From Whalleya microplaca (lineage: Eukaryota > Ascomycota > Sordariomycetes > Xylariales > Xylariaceae): a DNA stretch of 64,000 nucleotides. This document shows positions 4,150 through 38,425 of the stretch, one piece after another. The notes under the pieces were generated by a model. It was not told the DNA's origin and did not search any database. It saw only the letters and a list, made by a program, of their open reading frames with translations. Made by a program: the position numbers and the translations under genes. Location: positions 399,668-463,667 of the forward strand of contig MU385753.1 in the NCBI GenBank assembly GCA_022497155.1, given 5' to 3'. Position 1 is the first letter of the stretch. Each line of letters begins with the position of its first letter.

Positions 4150-7040
4150 TTATGTGGGGTAGGAGGGTATGTGTATTGAAATTTTCAATGGAAATTCAGT
4201 TTTGTCACACTTAACCCTGTGACACACGGTATTATGTATTCTTTTCGATTGCGAGATAATGTCCAACAACTCAATTCGAACGATCAGCTCTTGATCGTCG
4301 ATGCTAGTTGTAAAAGGGTCACGCTGCAAAACATGATTCATCCATCGTTCAAAGCTTGGGGAAAGTGGCTGGCAGATGGTATTGTAGTAAGAGGCGTCGG
4401 CCGTCCCGACGTGGTCGCGGACGTTGTAGTGGTGGAAGCACCACGCTTTATATGCGTAATGGCCGAATTTCTCGGTTTTAGGGCTGGGCTGGCCAATCTC
4501 GAAGTCTTTGGTGTCCCAACCAAGACAATACAGATAGGTGACACATATGTTGAGGAGAAGCAGGTGGGATCCTATCAGAGTGAAAGAAGGTTGGGTGATG
4601 TCTTCTCCCGTCTCAGCCCCCATCTCCTGTGAAGAAGACTGACATATAAGTGCCCGAGTTTCATCAGACCAGATCGGCATTGATGGTAAGATGAATCCAT
4701 AATTACGTGTCGTCAAAAGAAACTCCCTCGCAGTTTCGTGTATCAAGTACACCTTGTCGTGAACTATTCTGATGAATTGGCCACAGAGCGATTTGATATA
4801 GTTCTCGCACGGATAGACGATATCGTCTTCAATTTCGTCGAGTGTAAGCTTGGCACGCCTCGAGACATGCTCCGACGTAATAGAAACTGGCGTAATAGCA
4901 AGAGCAATGCTCATTTCCTCCGTAGTAAGGGGATGGTAGGCGGCGAGTACTATGCTGAGCAGCTTCTGGGCTTTGGGGTTTTCTAAGCGCGACGCAAGAA
5001 GTTCGCTATAAACATTGAAGATGTCACGATTTCGCAGCAGTTCATCAAGCTCTCGCCGCGACGCGCCCGCCTCTACCTTCTGTTCCAATAAGTTTAGAAT
5101 CAGAGAGACCCAGAGAAATGTCCGGTCAGCCCTCACGATTAGCTGTGCCTCGACTTCTTCAAGAATTTCTCGGGGAAGCCCTTGGTGGATAAGATCGTTA
5201 ATCTTCGCTTTGACAACCTTCGTAATGTCATCGCTTATCGCGTCTGTCTCATCTTCGCCTCGTAGGCGGATCATGGCGCATTTCACGGGTATGGCTTCTG
5301 GTTCCTCGGTACTTCGCCCCGAGAGCGATTGCAATGCGTTCTTGATTTGGTTCTCGGGACGGCTTGTCACGAAAAGTTTGACCATCGAGTTGCTCCTCTG
5401 GTAGACCGAAGAACCTTTGACCAACTCAGCTTCCTTCTCGTGGCAGTTCTGCTGCCCTTCTTGTTGTCTGAAATGTTTTGAAATTAGACTCAGGAGATGA
5501 CCGCGAGACCCAGAGTCACACTCGTCGATACCATCGAGGAAACAGATTGTGCTATTAGCATCTCTGTGTTCTGTAAACACAAGAAAGGCCTTCCAAAGTG
5601 TTTCCAGTTTCTCAAGGTTGCCACCCTGAAGGGTCTCAAGTCCCGTCGAGATCAGATCTCTTTGCTGGCTATATAGCTGATGCAAAAGAGCCTTCATTCC
5701 AGCAACGGCGCTTGATTGCTCTATATTGTCAGACTTGAAGAAGAAATAGCATACGTTCGTTTTTGACGTCTCAGAAGATCTTGACATATTGTCTATGAGG
5801 AATGAGGCTAGAACTGATTTACCACACCCGGGGTCGGCTGAAAACCACAGGAGGGATGGCCCAGGTGACTGCAGCCACGTCTTATACCTGTCGTGGGCGA
5901 AAATCCATGTGCATGTCCCTTTCACTCGCGCGGGATTTCGATTTTTATGTGCATTATAATTTGAGGCGCCTAGCAACTTCATGATATGCTTTGTATGTGC
6001 ATCATCATTCGATTTTTGGAATGATTCCATGGCATTGAACGGATTATTCTCCTTTGTTGACCTTGAGTGCTTTACCAGCTCCTCTAGCCGAGCTTTAATG
6101 GGCCCGAATTGATTTGCGTCGATATCAGAAAATCGACACATAGTTCGGTGGTCGCGTTCTAATGATATGACAGTTTCTGTTGAAATACCAAGAGTGGCGG
6201 AGTTCTTCTCGACTACCTGACGGCTTGCGTTAATGGGAGACATCTTCCATAGGGAAATCAAAAGGGTTCGCTCACGACGCAGTTCAAGAAATCCATCTTC
6301 AATGTCTCATAACACGAGATGATCCTAAGGTTACTACTTTGGTTACGAAAAGATGCTGATATATAGTCGAGGATCCTTGACTGCGGTTCCAAGTCTTCGG
6401 CTAGTTGTAAATTGGTGGTCGTACCAAACGACGCCGACTTGAGGATCTTCGCGATAATGCTTGCCCATGAGGCCAATTGAGAGCCTCTATGAGGTGTGCC
6501 AAAGAACATAACCCCCCCAAATTTGTTCTTGAGGCCAATATAACTTTTACTTTCTTGGGCTCTGATGAAAGCCTGTAAACAATTTAGATGTTGAGTGGCT
6601 ATAATTCAAGGGACTTCCCTAACCTGTTTGAAGACTAGGCCACCGAGCGAATGGCAGATGAATATAATTGGACGTTCTGATTCCACGGGGTTTTTTCTTT
6701 GAGCGCTGAGGCCCTCAAGAAGCTGGTCGCCGAAGTCTGATATATCTGAGGTTGATTTGCTGAATTGGAGTATGGAATTGTACCAGAAAGACATGATACG
6801 TGCCTTGGGCACGATTTCGGGTATTATATCGGCAAGCCAGTTGACATCGGTATCCTCGTCAGTCCAGGTACTCCGATAATGGCCATTCAGTCCATGAATA
6901 GCAACAATATCTACACAGTCGACGGCTTGGGCATCTTTTGGCACAATCGTATGTAGGCCATAGTCAGGCTTACTAGGGCCCTTTGCGGACACAGTGCCCT
7001 TCCCGTGGAAACGCTTTAATGCCTTGGAAAAGAAATCCAT
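4150..7040 (-). CDS. NOD-like receptor: SesB-type lipase domain plus NACHT NTPase
   Basis: This is a STAND-type receptor of the kind used in fungal non-self recognition. I read exons 7040-6624, 6572-6276 and 6216-4150, with 51- and 59-bp introns in phase 0, giving 926 residues. The start is the first ATG of the frame; upstream the frame is open but has no ATG. Residues about 35-235 are an alpha/beta-hydrolase (SesB/DUF676-like) domain with VAIHGLNGHYRSTW, the elbow CHSLGG (Ser about 131) and MFFGTPHRGS. The NACHT domain follows, with P-loop DPGCGKSVL near residue 367 and Walker B ICFLDGIDEC near 457, then the helical region and REFLLT about 660. After that come roughly 200 residues without recognisable WD, ankyrin or TPR repeats. 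The usual repeat sensor therefore seems absent, either truncated or of a repeat-less subtype. In such receptors the N-terminal domain is the effector; its substrate is unknown. Confidence 0.88.
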
Positions 7041-7984
7041 GTAAACTGATAGACAGCCCGGGTATTTCAACCTGCGAGTTTGACCGCATTGTAATCCAGC
7101 TCAAATTGGGCAGCCATGATTGACGGCTTATAAGCTTAGAGGCGGGTGCGGGGGTTTACCTGCACGTGATACTTATAACAGGCTGGGCAGTGCATGCGTG
7201 TTGGAAGAAGATGGATTGGAGGCGGAAAAGAGGTTGTTGTACTGAAGGTGGAGGACGGCTATGCTAATCTAATCCACGAGTACGCGACTCTCCTACGGCA
7301 CAGGAGCGACTGCCTGGATGAATGAGCATCTTTGGAAGGAAGTAATGATCAGGGTATGAATTATACTTGGAATTCACGACGTATCTTGAAGACTATACAT
7401 ATAGTGTCTACATAGTAGAGGTATCTCTAGGACCCCTATCTTTAGACTTAGATTCGGGATTAGATGAGCTACTAATAATAAAGCGAAAGTTACTACACGT
7501 AGAGCTGTTGGGAATCAAACCTACATACGAATTGCGACCATTCTACATACGTATATGTACCGTCGACTATCAGAATAACATTGCAATGACCCCGGTATAC
7601 GCTGTGTTTTCTGATATTTCAGATGTTGGGCGCATCCCACGAATGGAACATATCAATATCCCGTACCCATCTTCTGTTGCTGCTGCATTCTCAAGGTAAT
7701 CTAGGTATAGTCTTTCGGCACGGTTCCAAACTACACACATTGGGTAGTAATAGTACTGATCAAATAGTTCTATTGGCTTAGAGTTGTTCATGGGGATAAT
7801 GGCAAAGCAATGAAGTAAGCTTAAGTTGCTAGCGATGATGTTTGGCACTATGGAATTGGCAGAGACAACGCTGTTGCGATTCACAAACAGTGGCAGGTAT
7901 TGTCACGGGACAGCTGATAGCTGACTAAGCACCCCATATATCTGATAGCATCAGATACACACACCACAGCTAGGTTACTAGGTT
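7041..7984. other. Intergenic upstream of the SesB-NACHT gene
   Basis: This presumably contains the promoter of the receptor gene. Frames of about 105-110 codons on either strand (7367-7699 plus, 7570-7884 minus) overlap each other and have no recognisable domain. Confidence 0.45.
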
Positions 7985-33051: not shown

Positions 33052-36000
33052 TCATCGCCGCCGCCTGCTCCTTCGTCCTCCTCTGCTAGCTTTTCCTAGT
33101 TGCCGCATGGCTCGTCGACGCCTTCGTCTTAGTATGGTTGAGTTATTACTTGAGCTTCGTCGCATTCTTGGATCCTCTAGCTCATTCAGCGACTCCCACC
33201 ACCGATCACCAAGGTAACCCACTTCTTCCGGCGTCTGATAAGATTCCATCACCTTGATACATGACTTGATGATGTCCTTAGTGTCATCATGCTTAACACG
33301 TTCTAGCGCCTTGTGAGCAGCATCAATTGCTGTATCACCAGCATTATTTCTTGCTTTGGCATCCGTCTTACCAGTATTCCAGAGCAGGCGAAACGTACCT
33401 GCGAGATCTGAAAGCATACGGAAAGGTAAATTCCAAGCCATTGCATCAGAAAGTGGTGACATGCCATCATTATCCCTAGAATCGGGATCTACCTTCTCCG
33501 TGAGAAGAAGCATTTGTATTGCGTTGCTGCTATGACGCTGTGCTGCGTATGATAAAGGAGTCCGACCACGGATGTCTTTGGAGTTGGGGTCAACTTCTCT
33601 AGTAGCAAGCAACATTTTGACTATATCTATACAGCCCAAACCTGCTGCCTCTGATAATGGAGTCCGGCCACGGATGTCTTTGGAGTCGGGGTTAACTTTC
33701 CCAGTATTAAGCAACATTTTGACTATATCTGTACAGCCCAAACCTGCTGCCTCTGATAATGGAGTCCGGCCATAGATGTCTTTGGAGTCGGGGTCAACTT
33801 TCCCAGTATCAAGCAATATTTTAACTATATCTGTACAGCCGAAAGCTGCTGCCTCTAATAATGGAGTCCGGCCACGGATGTCTTTGGAGTTGGGGTCAAC
33901 TTCTCTAGTAGCAAGCAACACTTTGACTATATCTATACAGCCCAAACCTGCTGCCTCTGATAATGGAGTCCAGCCAGAAATGTCTTTGGAGTCGGGGTCA
34001 ACTTTCCCAGTATTAAGCAACATTTTAACTATATCTATACAGCCAAAATTTGCTGCCTCTGATAATGGAGTCCAGCCATCTATGTCTTTGGAGTCGGGGT
34101 TAACTTTCCTAGTATCAAGCAACATTTTAACTATATCTGGATAGCTAAATTGTGCTGCATATAAAAGAGGAGTTCGACCTTTGGAATCTGTAATATCGCA
34201 TTCAACATCCATGGTTGCTAGTGATGCTTTGATGCTATCCACACAGTCACTCGTCTTGGTATAGAAGAATTGTGTAAGGCCTACATCACAACTGGGGTCG
34301 CCGAGACATTCAGAATCGGTTGGGATTCTCACGGCTTGTATCATTTCGTGAGATACGCCTATTATGTATGATATAGCAGGATGGTTGTGTGTAACTAAAC
34401 GCCAGGTTGGGAGCAGGCGCAAAATTCGGGTGACTTGTTCTGGCTGCACGAATTTTCCTGACAGCGCAGTGCCTGTCACTATGCATGAGCCTGAGTTCTG
34501 TCCTTGCTGGTCTCTCCATCCGGAATCTCCTCTTCGGGTAGATATGAATAGATGCGCTATATCTAGAGAATAGTTTGTTGCTGCAGAGATCGCCGATGTT
34601 GCCTCAGATACATCTGAGCAGGCCCCATCGAGGGTCATATTCGCCAGTATTATTTCACATGGACTGCCTTTCTCCACCAAAGAAGACTGCTGTGTAAATT
34701 GTTGTATGAATTGGCTAGTATGGACCAGTAGAGCGGTTTTCTCCTTGCTTATAAAACTTGAATCAGTGGGCTCCTGGGAGAAACACGATTGGACTACCTT
34801 CACAAGATTAGGAGTAACGGGTTGCTGAGAAATGAGCCATTTGGCTGCTCTTGTAGCATTCGACATAATGGCCCAATGTAGGGCTGTGAGCCCAGCGGAA
34901 TCCTGTTCGTTAAGATTCGCGCCACCCACAAACAATAACTTCATTACCCCCACACAGTCTAGTTTTGCGAAGGAGGTAAATAGGCTTGGATGAGGTCTTT
35001 GTTCAAACTCTGATTTTGGTTCTCTAAGAGATTTGAAGTATGCCATGTCTTCTTCATCTATAAAACTAGCAGCCATTGGATTCTTTAACGCTAGTAGACC
35101 GAGATTTATCGCAGTTTCTTGTTGTCTATTCTGCAAGGCGACTAATAAAGGAGTGTGGAACGGCCCCCCTTTTATTTCCATATGGCGGCTTCTATCTGGG
35201 TGGATGTTGACCAGGTAAAACAAATTGTGTTGTGCAAGAATGTATAGCAGTGTGGCATCGATCCGATGTATCGTGTGATACTGTTCGCATTTTCCGCCAA
35301 ATTTCTCAACTATTTCACAGCGAGGGCCGGCTTTTTCAACCACGAAGCTATACGCGTGGACCCAGTCATCCAGTGGGAAGTGAGTAAGGAATTCCAACTG
35401 TGCTATCCCATGATATTGTGCTATATCAGCATGGTCTAGGACATGGTGTACCGCATATGACAGCAAAGGATGATTGCGGGTGGCATGATTCTCTGACCTT
35501 GCTGATTCTATCCTTTTGAGGCATATCTGCTTTATCTTGTCATGGGTCTTGCCTTCAACATTTTCTCCCAAGTGTGGCCATAGCTGTAGAAGCCCCTTGT
35601 CGAGAAGGAGGAAATCACGAACAGATTCGTGAATGAACTCTAGTGTACCACTAGGTTTGCACCCCTCATGGTGCATAGTCTCTTGTACGAGGCCCTTTGA
35701 CGAGTTCAGAATGAAGCGACGCATTTGCACCATAGTCGTGCTTAGCCAATGTTCCCACAAAAAGTTGTTGCCTAGACCGAGCTGAATCCCATAATAGAGC
35801 TCTGTTATGTCCAATGGGTCCCGTGCAACTAAAACCCACTGAATGCACAAGAGCGTAGCATCTCGGTCTTCGAGATTTTGCTCGAAATCTCGAATTAAAA
35901 TATCGTGAAACAAGGCCATCAACTCCGAGGGCAATTTGTCCAGCTGCTGTCTTAGAGCTGTCACTTTTCCTCGATCAAACGCTTTGTTCAGCATTGGGAT

Positions 36001-37103
36001 GACTAGTGCGACCCAAAGGAAAACCCCAGACGACTTGTGCATGATCTTATCTTTTATTTCATTGTACTCCATTGAATCACCAATCCGAAGCTTCAGATCA
36101 ACGTACTGTTTGATGTCAAGGACGTGTTTCGGATTGTCTTCAAGCACCAAAGAAATTCCCTCATTGAATGAGATATTAGGGTAATGCCGGCTCGAGAAGC
36201 AGACATTGAGCTTTGTTTTATTCTTGGCGGCTTCACGACCAAGACTTTGAAAGAATGACATCAGATCTCGGATTTCATCCTCGGGGCATTCGTCCAGTGC
36301 GTCAATGTAGCAGGCGATGTTCCGACTCCTAAGTTTCCCTACAGCACTGAAGCATCAGAGGTTAGCCTTGCTTTTTTTTTTCTAGCAGCGTGGCAAATTA
36401 TCTAGAGACCTTAGAACTTCATTAGGAGCCTTTAGCTGCCAAATGTATTCCAAGAGCAGATTTTTGTTCTTTGAACCGGACGGAAAGAGCAACAAATGTT
36501 TCTGAGTGCTACTTACTGTTGGATAAGATTTTGAAGATCTTGTATTTGCCACCCATTGTATTCAGCGAAACTGGGCTCCTTGTAATCAAGCTCATCAAGA
36601 GTGATGCGTAGATCTGGAAACAACTCGAATAGCTGGCACAATAGTGCTCGATAGAGTCCCATAGCTGTTCTTTCAAGCTCGCTTCCTCTAGCATGGAAGA
36701 AGAATGAGACCACCTCTGCGTGAGGCAGAGCCTCTCTAGATTTTCCAAGCAAGAATTTCATAAGAGTGGACTTCCCGGCCCCTGGCTTGCCTCTAATCCT
36801 CAAGAATCCATGATGGTCATCGAACTTCAGAGGGTTAACCCATTCAGTATATTCCGGGGTGCGGACAAACCAAGCACATGTGTCTGAAATAGGCGGCCGA
36901 AGATTTTGTTTCCGGGCATTAATTTGCGGGAATTGCAACAAGCGGATGAATTTTCGATACCTGTCTTCACGCTTCTGTTCCTCGGACTCGTGTCGTTGAT
37001 TGCTTTCACCTGTAAATATGTAGGTATGCCCATTTTGAACCCGAGAGTCTCCCAGATTTATCTGCCGCCGGATATTGTGGTCTGCTCTTGCCGGGCTAGC
37101 CAT
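33052..37103 (-). CDS. NOD-like receptor: HET-s-type amyloid motif, NACHT NTPase, ankyrin repeats
   Basis: Predicted sensor of a cell-death pair with the divergent HET-S homologue. Exons 37103-36517 and 36346-33052 flank a 170-bp intron (GTAAGT, branch GGCTAAC, acceptor TTCAG) joined in frame, giving 1293 residues. Residues 16-30 (NLGDSRVQNGHTYIF) match the repeat motif at the C terminus of the neighbour. Then come DTCAWFVRTPEYTEW, P-loop GKPGAGKST (105-113) and Walker B IACYIDALDEC (206-216), the NACHT core. A winged-helix/helical region with LEFIHESVRDFLL follows. Two isolated ankyrin-like units occur (AGLTALHWAIMS at about 660-680), then a tight array of about eight 34-residue ankyrin repeats (about 915-1150), and a basic Arg-rich tail. 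No other effector domain precedes the motif, as expected if activation is passed on by amyloid templating. The ligand is unknown. Confidence 0.9.
33540..34183 (-). repeat. 102-bp tandem repeats encoding near-identical ankyrin units
   Basis: The plus-strand marker ATGTCTTTGGAGT recurs at 33572, 33674, 33776, 33878, 33980 and 34082, exactly 102 bases apart. Each unit encodes a 34-residue ankyrin repeat. Copies differ at a few codons only, clustered at positions 3, 5, 9, 12-13, 16, 21, 24, 26-27 and 29 of the unit. High internal identity points to recent unit exchange or concerted evolution. Confidence 0.95.
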
Positions 37104-37537
37104 TGGTACCCAGTATGTCTACCAAACTGCCCAATGCATTGTGCGAAATTGGGTGGTTGCGATGTGTGGAAAGAGATTTCACGGTCGGCGGCTGCTTTGA
37201 GATTTTAGTACTGCCACTCACCATAAGTCTGCCTAGCCCCCCACCGACTTCACTGCCTGGTACTGCGATATCGAACGGATGATTGGACGCCACATGATGC
37301 AGTCATCAATTGCACTGCCGCCCGACTGGTATGAGGGAGTGGTTCCGCATGACCCCTTGGTATGTGAGGGAGACAGCCTTAATAGGCATCTATCTAGGCA
37401 GACGCGCAGTGTAACTTTTAGCAGGGTATTTCAAGGTCGCTGAATCTCCCCATTTGCGCGATTCTGCCGGGAATGTCCATGATCGCCTGGCGTCTTGTAG
37501 CATTTTGTTTCCAACAAAGAGAAAGCGGCCCTTACAT
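37104..37537. promoter_or_regulatory. 434-bp divergent promoter region of the receptor/HET-S pair
   Basis: The two start codons (37103 minus, 37538 plus) face away from each other across this segment, so regulatory sequence must be shared or interleaved. No obvious TATA box or palindromic operator stands out. The assignment rests on gene orientation only. Confidence 0.55.
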
Positions 37538-38425
37538 ATGCCTGGGCCCTTTAGTTTCGTAGCGGGATCTATAGGCATTGCCTCCGCCTTGAACGCATGT
37601 ATCAGCGGTATTGGAAAGATCCAGATTGCTCGCCGCTCTGGATCAGATTTTCAGACGTCCCAATTGCGCTTGACTTGGCTGAGACTTCGACTTTCACGAT
37701 GGGGGGAGGCCATTCAAGTTCATGATGATCCGAGGTTCAAAGGGCCCATAGAGACGACTCCCGAAGTTAAAGCTGCGAAAGACACTATCTTCCAGATCCT
37801 TAGGCTCCTCGAGAAGTCTGAAAAGTCGTCTAAGAGCCTCGAAGGACGAGGTGGTCAACCCGAGGATCTTTCGCCATTCCAGAACAGAGACCTGCCGCAG
37901 AATCTGCTCTCTCTGGACAACGAAATGCAAGCTCTTGTCTCACAGCGACAGAAGAATAGAATGAACCGAGCCAAGATTGTCAGCTGGGTGGTATACAAGA
38001 AAGAGGATCTCTCTCAACTAATTGAGAACATGGCCTCACTGATCGATGAGTTATATCGAAACTTCCCGACTCCGCAGAGGGACGAGACTATAGCGATAGA
38101 GGAGCTAGAGACGCTCAAATCAGCCGCTATGGATCAAGAAGCTGCAATGCAGAATCTGCAAAAGGTCGTGGAAGGCATAGATGGCACAATCAACAAGACG
38201 ATTGAGTCAATGACCCCGGCTGGTCATGGGTACGGAGACCAGTCATACAAGGACAATGCTCGAATCCATAACGGAGACACGATCAGCAAAGTCTGGGCCG
38301 ATATCGATATGCCCGGGGGTCTACCTGCCGGACCGGGGATGAGAATTGGCACTCAGAGAGCAGAGGGGAATGCAAGGGTTCGTAACGGCAATGCTTACGT
38401 CGACAGCGATAATTTCTGGTCGTAG
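37538..38425 (+). CDS. het-S: HET-S homologue: HeLo domain with C-terminal amyloid-forming two-repeat region
   Basis: Predicted membrane-targeting executioner of fungal regulated cell death. It is a single exon of 295 residues, close to the Podospora HET-S length. The chosen ATG gives MPGPFSFVAG; the upstream open frame has no ATG. Residues 1-30 form a hydrophobic N-terminal segment (FSFVAGSIGIASALNACISG), and RLSRWGEA with DDPRF (51-67) is the signature HeLo core, predicted helical to about 220. The tail carries two motif copies, DNARIHNGDTI (239-249) and GNARVRNGNAYV (277-288), separated by a Gly/Pro-rich linker (MPGGLPAGPG) and ending in FWS. In the family each copy forms one layer pair of a beta-solenoid amyloid. 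The divergent NACHT-ankyrin gene has a third copy at its N terminus. By recollected ungapped alignment, positions 33 and 86, important for HET-s/HET-S specificity, are Arg and Gln. Confidence 0.92.
   Translation: MPGPFSFVAGSIGIASALNACISGIGKIQIARRSGSDFQTSQLRLTWLRLRLSRWGEAIQVHDDPRFKGPIETTPEVKAAKDTIFQILRLLEKSEKSSKSLEGRGGQPEDLSPFQNRDLPQNLLSLDNEMQALVSQRQKNRMNRAKIVSWVVYKKEDLSQLIENMASLIDELYRNFPTPQRDETIAIEELETLKSAAMDQEAAMQNLQKVVEGIDGTINKTIESMTPAGHGYGDQSYKDNARIHNGDTISKVWADIDMPGGLPAGPGMRIGTQRAEGNARVRNGNAYVDSDNFWS

Follow-up and report, generated by a model that had tools for sequence, protein, structure and literature searches.

The divergent gene pair and its products

The subject of this study is a pair of neighbouring genes in a 64-kb window of the Whalleya microplaca genome (positions 399668-463667 of contig MU385753.1; the assembly has 48.1 Mb in 114 contigs), and by "the window" we mean this whole stretch throughout. 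One gene encodes a putative cell-death effector related to HET-S, the other a NOD-like receptor (NLR) with ankyrin repeats. As the first-pass annotation of this DNA had it, they are divergent, with 434 bp between their start codons, and the positions first assigned to them hold. The best named relatives of both genes belong to Xylariales.

The effector N-terminus matches the HeLo family PF14479 (E 1.7e-29), and the closest solved chain is the HeLo domain of HET-s/HET-S (2wvo, E 1.8e-35). The 295-residue open reading frame indeed carries at its C-terminus the two motifs of the (N)AR(I/V)xNG kind noticed earlier, namely NARIHNG, ending at Gly 246 in repeat r1, and NARVRNG, ending at Gly 284 in repeat r2. 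The receptor gene does open with MASPARADHNIRRQINLGDSRVQNGHTYIF and continue as a NACHT receptor, as had been proposed, although it consists of two exons, separated by an intron that was missing from the earlier reading; homologues align across the exon junction. Exon 1 matches NPHP3_N (PF24883; E 4.3e-18, 66.5 bits against a cut-off of 24.8), and it is through this family that the nucleotide-binding domain of NACHT type is recognised, the NACHT family PF05729 itself falling below its cut-off on exon 1 alone. Three features of NWD2, the receptor paired with HET-S in Podospora anserina, are thus present here: an adjoining divergent effector gene, a nucleotide-binding domain of NACHT type and, as described below, a single N-terminal motif. 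WD repeats, the fourth, were not found, and ankyrin repeats stand in their place. The coordinates of all features are collected in Table 1.

Table 1. Positions in the window of the two genes and of the features within and between them
Feature	Position	Strand	Basis or detail
NLR receptor gene, 1293 aa, exons 37103-36517 and 36346-33052	33052..37103	-	spliced reading frame
Receptor amyloid motif r0, residues 9-28	37020..37079	-	27.5 bits over residues 11-28
NACHT-type nucleotide-binding domain (NPHP3_N), approximately residues 75-250, interrupted by the intron	36184..36881	-	PF24883
Receptor intron, 170 bp	36347..36516	-	GTAAGT donor, CTAAC branch site, CAG acceptor
Receptor residues 716-905, mostly insert	34219..34788	-	absent from five motif-bearing homologues
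Ankyrin array, seven 34-residue units, residues 921-1158, six similar copies	33460..34173	-	Pfam Ank_2, E 1.2e-56
Intergenic region between both start codons	37104..37537		434 bp
HET-S-like effector gene, single exon, 295 aa	37538..38425	+	open reading frame, HeLo match
HeLo pore-forming domain, residues 8-187	37559..38098	+	PF14479
Amyloid repeat r1, residues 228-248, motif positions 1-21	38219..38281	+	24.7 bits, profile of HET-s-related amyloid motifs (HRAM) without this group
Amyloid repeat r2, residues 266-286, motif positions 1-21	38333..38395	+	24.9 bits, HRAM profile without this group

A motif common to the effector tail and the receptor N-terminus

Searches with the effector gave four matches by single sequence and 179 by profile, of which the best 120 are described here. 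Three relatives have the same kind of tail: P0002 and P0003 (from Xylariaceae sp. AK1471) and P0126 (from Annulohypoxylon maeteangense). A hidden Markov model (HMM) of 12 tails from outside this group gave the window tail 54.2 bits, against 10.5 for the highest of 1000 shuffles (953 scored); one of the 12 rows carried a one-letter error, and without that row the tail scores 52.7 bits and the receptor N-terminus 10.7. A profile of 15 tails, chosen from 121 and including four of the group, finds the HET-s(218-289) fibril structures with both repeats aligned at E 8.1e-9 (1.3e-8 with the faulty row included). In the PDB, the four tails of the group alone found HET-s at E 0.058-0.07, below chance matches to RuBisCO, and a single-sequence search with the window tail gave nothing informative.

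The geometry of the tail is also of HET-S kind. The Gly19-to-Gly19 spacing is 38 in the window effector, 36 in five of the six relatives compared and 32 in the remaining one, and the loop joining r1 and r2 has 17 residues in the published register, within the 6-18 range of pseudo-repeats of this kind. In a structure model of the effector, strands are predicted at residues 230-237, 242-245 and 248-249 of r1 and at 268-275, 280-283 and 286-287 of r2, and the model shows a HeLo fold and a tail that looks solenoid-like; most rows in a structural comparison run over residues 8-215. The tail is not a canonical HET-s prion domain (PF11558, HRAM1), an assignment which we rejected: PF11558 (HET-s_218-289) matches neither the window effector nor its tail, and position 3 of the motif is His, His and Met in r0, r1 and r2, respectively, instead of the Asn of canonical HET-s/HRAM1. 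With E values up to 1 allowed, six of the 15 related tails are matched by PF11558, the best of them with 1.8e-5, and the HRAM survey gives a figure of 38 out of 155 two-repeat proteins matched by it (PMC4518210).

In the receptor, residues 11-28 reach 27.5 bits against a profile built on the six repeats of three effectors from other fungi. None of 5000 shuffles of residues 1-60 comes up to this value (best 15.8), and elsewhere in the protein the highest score is 5.9 bits; with a profile of r1 and r2 of the window alone, one shuffle in 5000 equals the receptor score. The HMM of 12 outside tails scores residues 1-60 at 10.8 bits when they are taken alone (9.2 for the highest of 1000 shuffles, 831 of them scored), but at only 4.5 bits when they stand in the full-length receptor. 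In profile-profile comparison, six receptor N-termini matched effector tails with P 1.4e-8 (1.8e-8 for tails of the group only, 4.4e-8 with the faulty row), the window sequence standing on both sides of these comparisons. A profile of the six N-termini alone did not find HET-s in the PDB. A broad HRAM profile of 94 non-redundant segments, with the own group excluded, still places its best receptor match at r0, weakly: among shuffled versions, 17 of 5000 for residues 1-60 and 14 of 300 for the complete protein score as high. The expected match of the receptor to a HET-s-type motif was obtained with the effector profile of the group, but it comes near chance when the group is excluded and the whole protein is considered.

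The receptor search returned 4144 matches, of which the best 120 are described. Scanning the first 100 residues of these, we found the r0 motif in five (27.9-36.6 bits; the next scored 5.2), all from Xylariales: Hypomontagnella monticulosa, Xylariaceae sp. AK1471, Annulohypoxylon moriforme, Hypoxylon sp. NC0597 and Hypoxylon trugodes. Together with the window receptor they form one clade, with support of 0.994 in FastTree (119 of 121 sequences, two having been left out for the length of the matched region) and 100/99 in IQ-TREE. The 54 rows of the latter comprise the six motif receptors, 44 other matches and four paralogues from the own genome; P0006, the AK1471 receptor, and three own-genome rows are flagged there as long branches.

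One might still suppose that two unrelated neighbours merely share short Gly/Asn-rich stretches by chance, an idea to which the near-chance score of the whole receptor with the group-excluding profile (14/300) lends something. Against it stand the absence of any equal among 5000 shuffles with the effector profile of the group, the restriction of the motif to one clade and the profile-profile P of 1e-8 to 4e-8. We rejected chance resemblance on the shuffles and give it practically no credence.

A glutamine at motif position 8

Motif positions are numbered after the HRAM survey, according to which the core generally has hydrophobic residues at positions 5, 8, 10, 16 and 18, and position 8 co-varies with position 18 (PMC4518210). 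All 14 copies of our group (six r0 and eight r1 or r2) have the invariant Gly 19, Arg as the preferred positive charge at 15, and hydrophobic residues at 5 and 16; position 10 is mixed (Asn in the window r0), position 18 is Asn in 12 of 14, and position 8 is Gln in every copy. We take position 8 of the HET-s motif to be buried, which fits the published core pattern and co-variation. Among 237 repeat segments with Gly 19 (242 were sought in 121 HeLo proteins), Gln 8 occurs in nine, namely the eight of this group and r1 of P0131, where it appears to result from a wrong register placement.

A polar residue at a core position does not exclude HRAM membership, because HRAM4 and HRAM5 were published with Gln at positions 18 and 16. 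The hallmarks given for HRAM1 to HRAM5 are Asn 3, Gln 3, His 3, Gln 18 and Gln 16 (PMC4518210), and none of them fully describes the group when it is compared with these hallmarks as quoted in the text. HRAM3 is alike in one respect, as its His 3 (PMC4518210) is found in r1 of all four group effectors and in the window r0; it differs in that the group has Gln 8 instead of a hydrophobic residue, while r2 has Met 3. His 3 of r1 did not lead us to file the group under HRAM3: mean identity to 13 other tails, of which nearly all share this residue in r1 (0.275 for r1, 0.294 for r2), is not above that to seven tails with mostly Ile 3 (0.314 and 0.402). On sequence grounds the motif is thus a divergent HET-s-related variant with Gln 8 in every copy, and we propose a further HRAM subfamily for it. 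This variant is what may be new here; it is a small thing, and the one feature that may deserve a specialist's look.

The same variation could be read in another way, as decay: the pair would be a relic, with genes intact on paper and a motif that has drifted (Gln 8, and Asn 10 in r0) until templating was lost. The window r0 does score lowest of the six receptors (27.5 bits against 27.9-36.6) and has no hydrophobic residue at position 10. Both frames are, on the other hand, open and the intron clean; Gln 8 is kept in 14 of 14 copies, which is hardly expected under drift; and among eight segments compared across the six receptors, identity is highest in r0 (mean pairwise identity 0.637, against 0.54 for the nucleotide-binding and oligomerisation domain and 0.227 for the linker after r0). 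We consider a relic highly improbable.

Origin of the amyloid head and the proposed signalling circuit

Ankyrin domains are annotated in 113 of the best 120 of 4144 receptor matches and WD40 in none. In the sister rows of the motif-bearing clade in IQ-TREE (P0009, P0010, P0012, P0013 and P0014) the N-terminal head is a carboxylesterase (two rows), HET or subtilase, or no head is annotated; ankyrin domains are annotated in all but one of these five. Near paralogues in the own genome (L050, L052 and L053) have upstream an alpha/beta-hydrolase-like frame with FVHGFTGHP or a close variant, with Pfam matches of the L050 frame lying just below cut-off. As the motif receptors nest among NLRs mostly with ankyrin repeats and other heads, it seems that the head, and not the sensor, is the part that changed; within our sample, the lineage seems to have had ankyrin repeats before it acquired the amyloid head, apparently in a single gain. 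The first-pass annotation had regarded the ankyrin array as an unusual sensor swapped into the circuit. We rejected this view on the trees, which seem to put ankyrin repeats before the amyloid head, and on the literature, where ankyrin-bearing NWD2 homologues were already reported in 2015.

A second NLR lies in the window at 4150-7100 on the minus strand, with a NACHT/NPHP3_N exon (4150-6306) and a weak serine-esterase-like (DUF676) frame upstream (6606-7100). At its locus (L027) the amyloid-motif profile gave nothing above 8 bits.

At the DNA level the ankyrin array appears as a tandem repeat at 33541-34138 (period 102 bp, 5.9 copies, 88% matches), and over 33541-34179 a higher-order period of 306 bp is visible, as if blocks of three repeats had been duplicated. 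Nucleotide identity among six units is 0.755-0.980 (mean 0.861), mean amino-acid identity is 0.747, and nonsynonymous and synonymous difference proportions are about equal (0.143 and 0.129 over 15 pairs). Variable positions include 3, 5, 13 and 14, which we take to be target-binding in designed ankyrin proteins. Fungal NLR repeat arrays with more than 85% internal identity have been described as fast-evolving recognition surfaces (PMC4986451); the window array is near this cut-off, and below it at the amino-acid level. The insert preceding the array (residues 716-905) contains neither a GTRNGT donor nor a CTRAC branch site, and has no relative among the best 120 of 4144 NLR matches. The frame ends in an arginine-rich tail (33052-33170) beyond the end of most of the five homologues, and the true C-terminus may lie earlier.

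As the motif is common to both proteins, we infer that the neighbouring HeLo gene is cognate to the receptor. Linkage of the two is also suggested in AK1471, because its effector P0003 and receptor P0006 lie on contigs of equal size (3,712,617). For the other four motif receptors no HeLo match on a contig of equal size is found among the matches listed, which is weak evidence of absence, as these lists miss relatives (P0003 itself is missing from the best 120 of 179). In the own genome, a search with the effector tail at E up to 10 found its own place only. The HeLo family has nine matches there at eight places, two of which, 190 bp apart, are probably exons of one gene. The motif profile was run over 58 own-genome loci, some overlapping (8 of 39 NACHT, 30 of 78 NPHP3_N, 9 of 9 HeLo and 10 of 25 receptor-exon-1 matches, and one tail match), and exceeded 12.2 bits only in the three covering this pair. 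One of the HeLo loci (L010, 319-2286, minus strand) encodes a HeLo domain (E 9.4e-30) in fusion with a protein-kinase-like one (E 6.3e-7, slightly under its cut-off), an order that resembles that of the necroptosis protein MLKL.

These surveys bear on the possibility that the motifs are homologous and amyloid, but that the main partners of the receptor are other effectors, or those of the HeLo protein other receptors, adjacency being a leftover. Elsewhere among fungi, genes that are not neighbours are suspected of signalling to each other (PMC9815663); of the five related receptors, four lack a linked effector among the matches listed. The tail search, however, found one place at E up to 10, and r0 was not seen at the other loci among the 58 scanned. 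We regard such crossed signalling as improbable, if somewhat less so than the relic.

It is very probable that the two genes make up a two-part amyloid signalosome of the NWD2/HET-S kind. We observed the common motif (one receptor copy, two effector copies), the adjacency and, in our sample, a motif confined to a single receptor clade, and homology supports the circuit well, as a two-repeat HeLo effector adjoins an NLR with one N-terminal repeat. The NWD2/HET-S genes of P. anserina are likewise divergent neighbours, 0.6 kb apart (PMC4344463), with the same composition of two-repeat HeLo effector and one-repeat NACHT receptor. That system differs in having WD instead of ankyrin repeats, while the window motif lacks the Asn 3 of HRAM1, has Gln 8 and mostly Asn 18, and sits in a tail that PF11558 misses. 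Because of the ankyrin repeats we do not file the receptor as an NWD2 orthologue, although it would work like NWD2. FNT1/HELLF of P. anserina (HRAM5) differs in that the HELLF domain is HeLo-like rather than HeLo and the motif belongs to another subfamily. In the sesA/sesB/het-eN cluster of Nectria haematococca, a NACHT-ankyrin receptor also adjoins effectors with a common motif (sigma) proposed to be prion-like (PMC3321046), but the motif family and the effector domains are others. What we describe is in all probability a conserved amyloid signalling pair of a known kind, and its sensor is not unusual; of the circuit first proposed for this locus, the pair stood and the exceptional sensor did not. 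A literature search of limited coverage turned up, by title, no work on such pairs in Xylariales.

In NWD2/HET-S, a receptor that has bound its ligand serves as template for the tail of the effector, whose HeLo domain goes on to attack the membrane (PMC4344463, PMC3321046). By homology, a ligand bound to the ankyrin repeats would open up the receptor here, and oligomerisation by way of the NACHT domain would gather several r0 copies into stacked beta-solenoid rungs. This stack would template r1 and r2 into the same fold, and the freed HeLo domain may then, as in HET-S, attack the plasma membrane and kill the cell.

A more specific idea, which we put forward tentatively and rate at somewhat less than an even chance, is that the motif is an unlisted HRAM subfamily in which the buried hydrophobic residue at position 8 became an invariant Gln in r0, r1 and r2, a stacked Gln ladder serving as a private key against cross-seeding, and that this motif was added a single time, within Xylariales, to a lineage of receptors with earlier ankyrin repeats and enzyme heads. 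If this reading of Gln 8 is true, the group would offer a naturally occurring case in which to test which side chains determine the specificity of cross-seeding among HET-s-like amyloids. The pair adds to the known amyloid signalling pairs a conserved receptor-effector example with an ankyrin sensor and a distinctive motif, and its clade-restricted head on an ankyrin receptor suggests that fungal NLRs can alter their output while keeping their sensor type.

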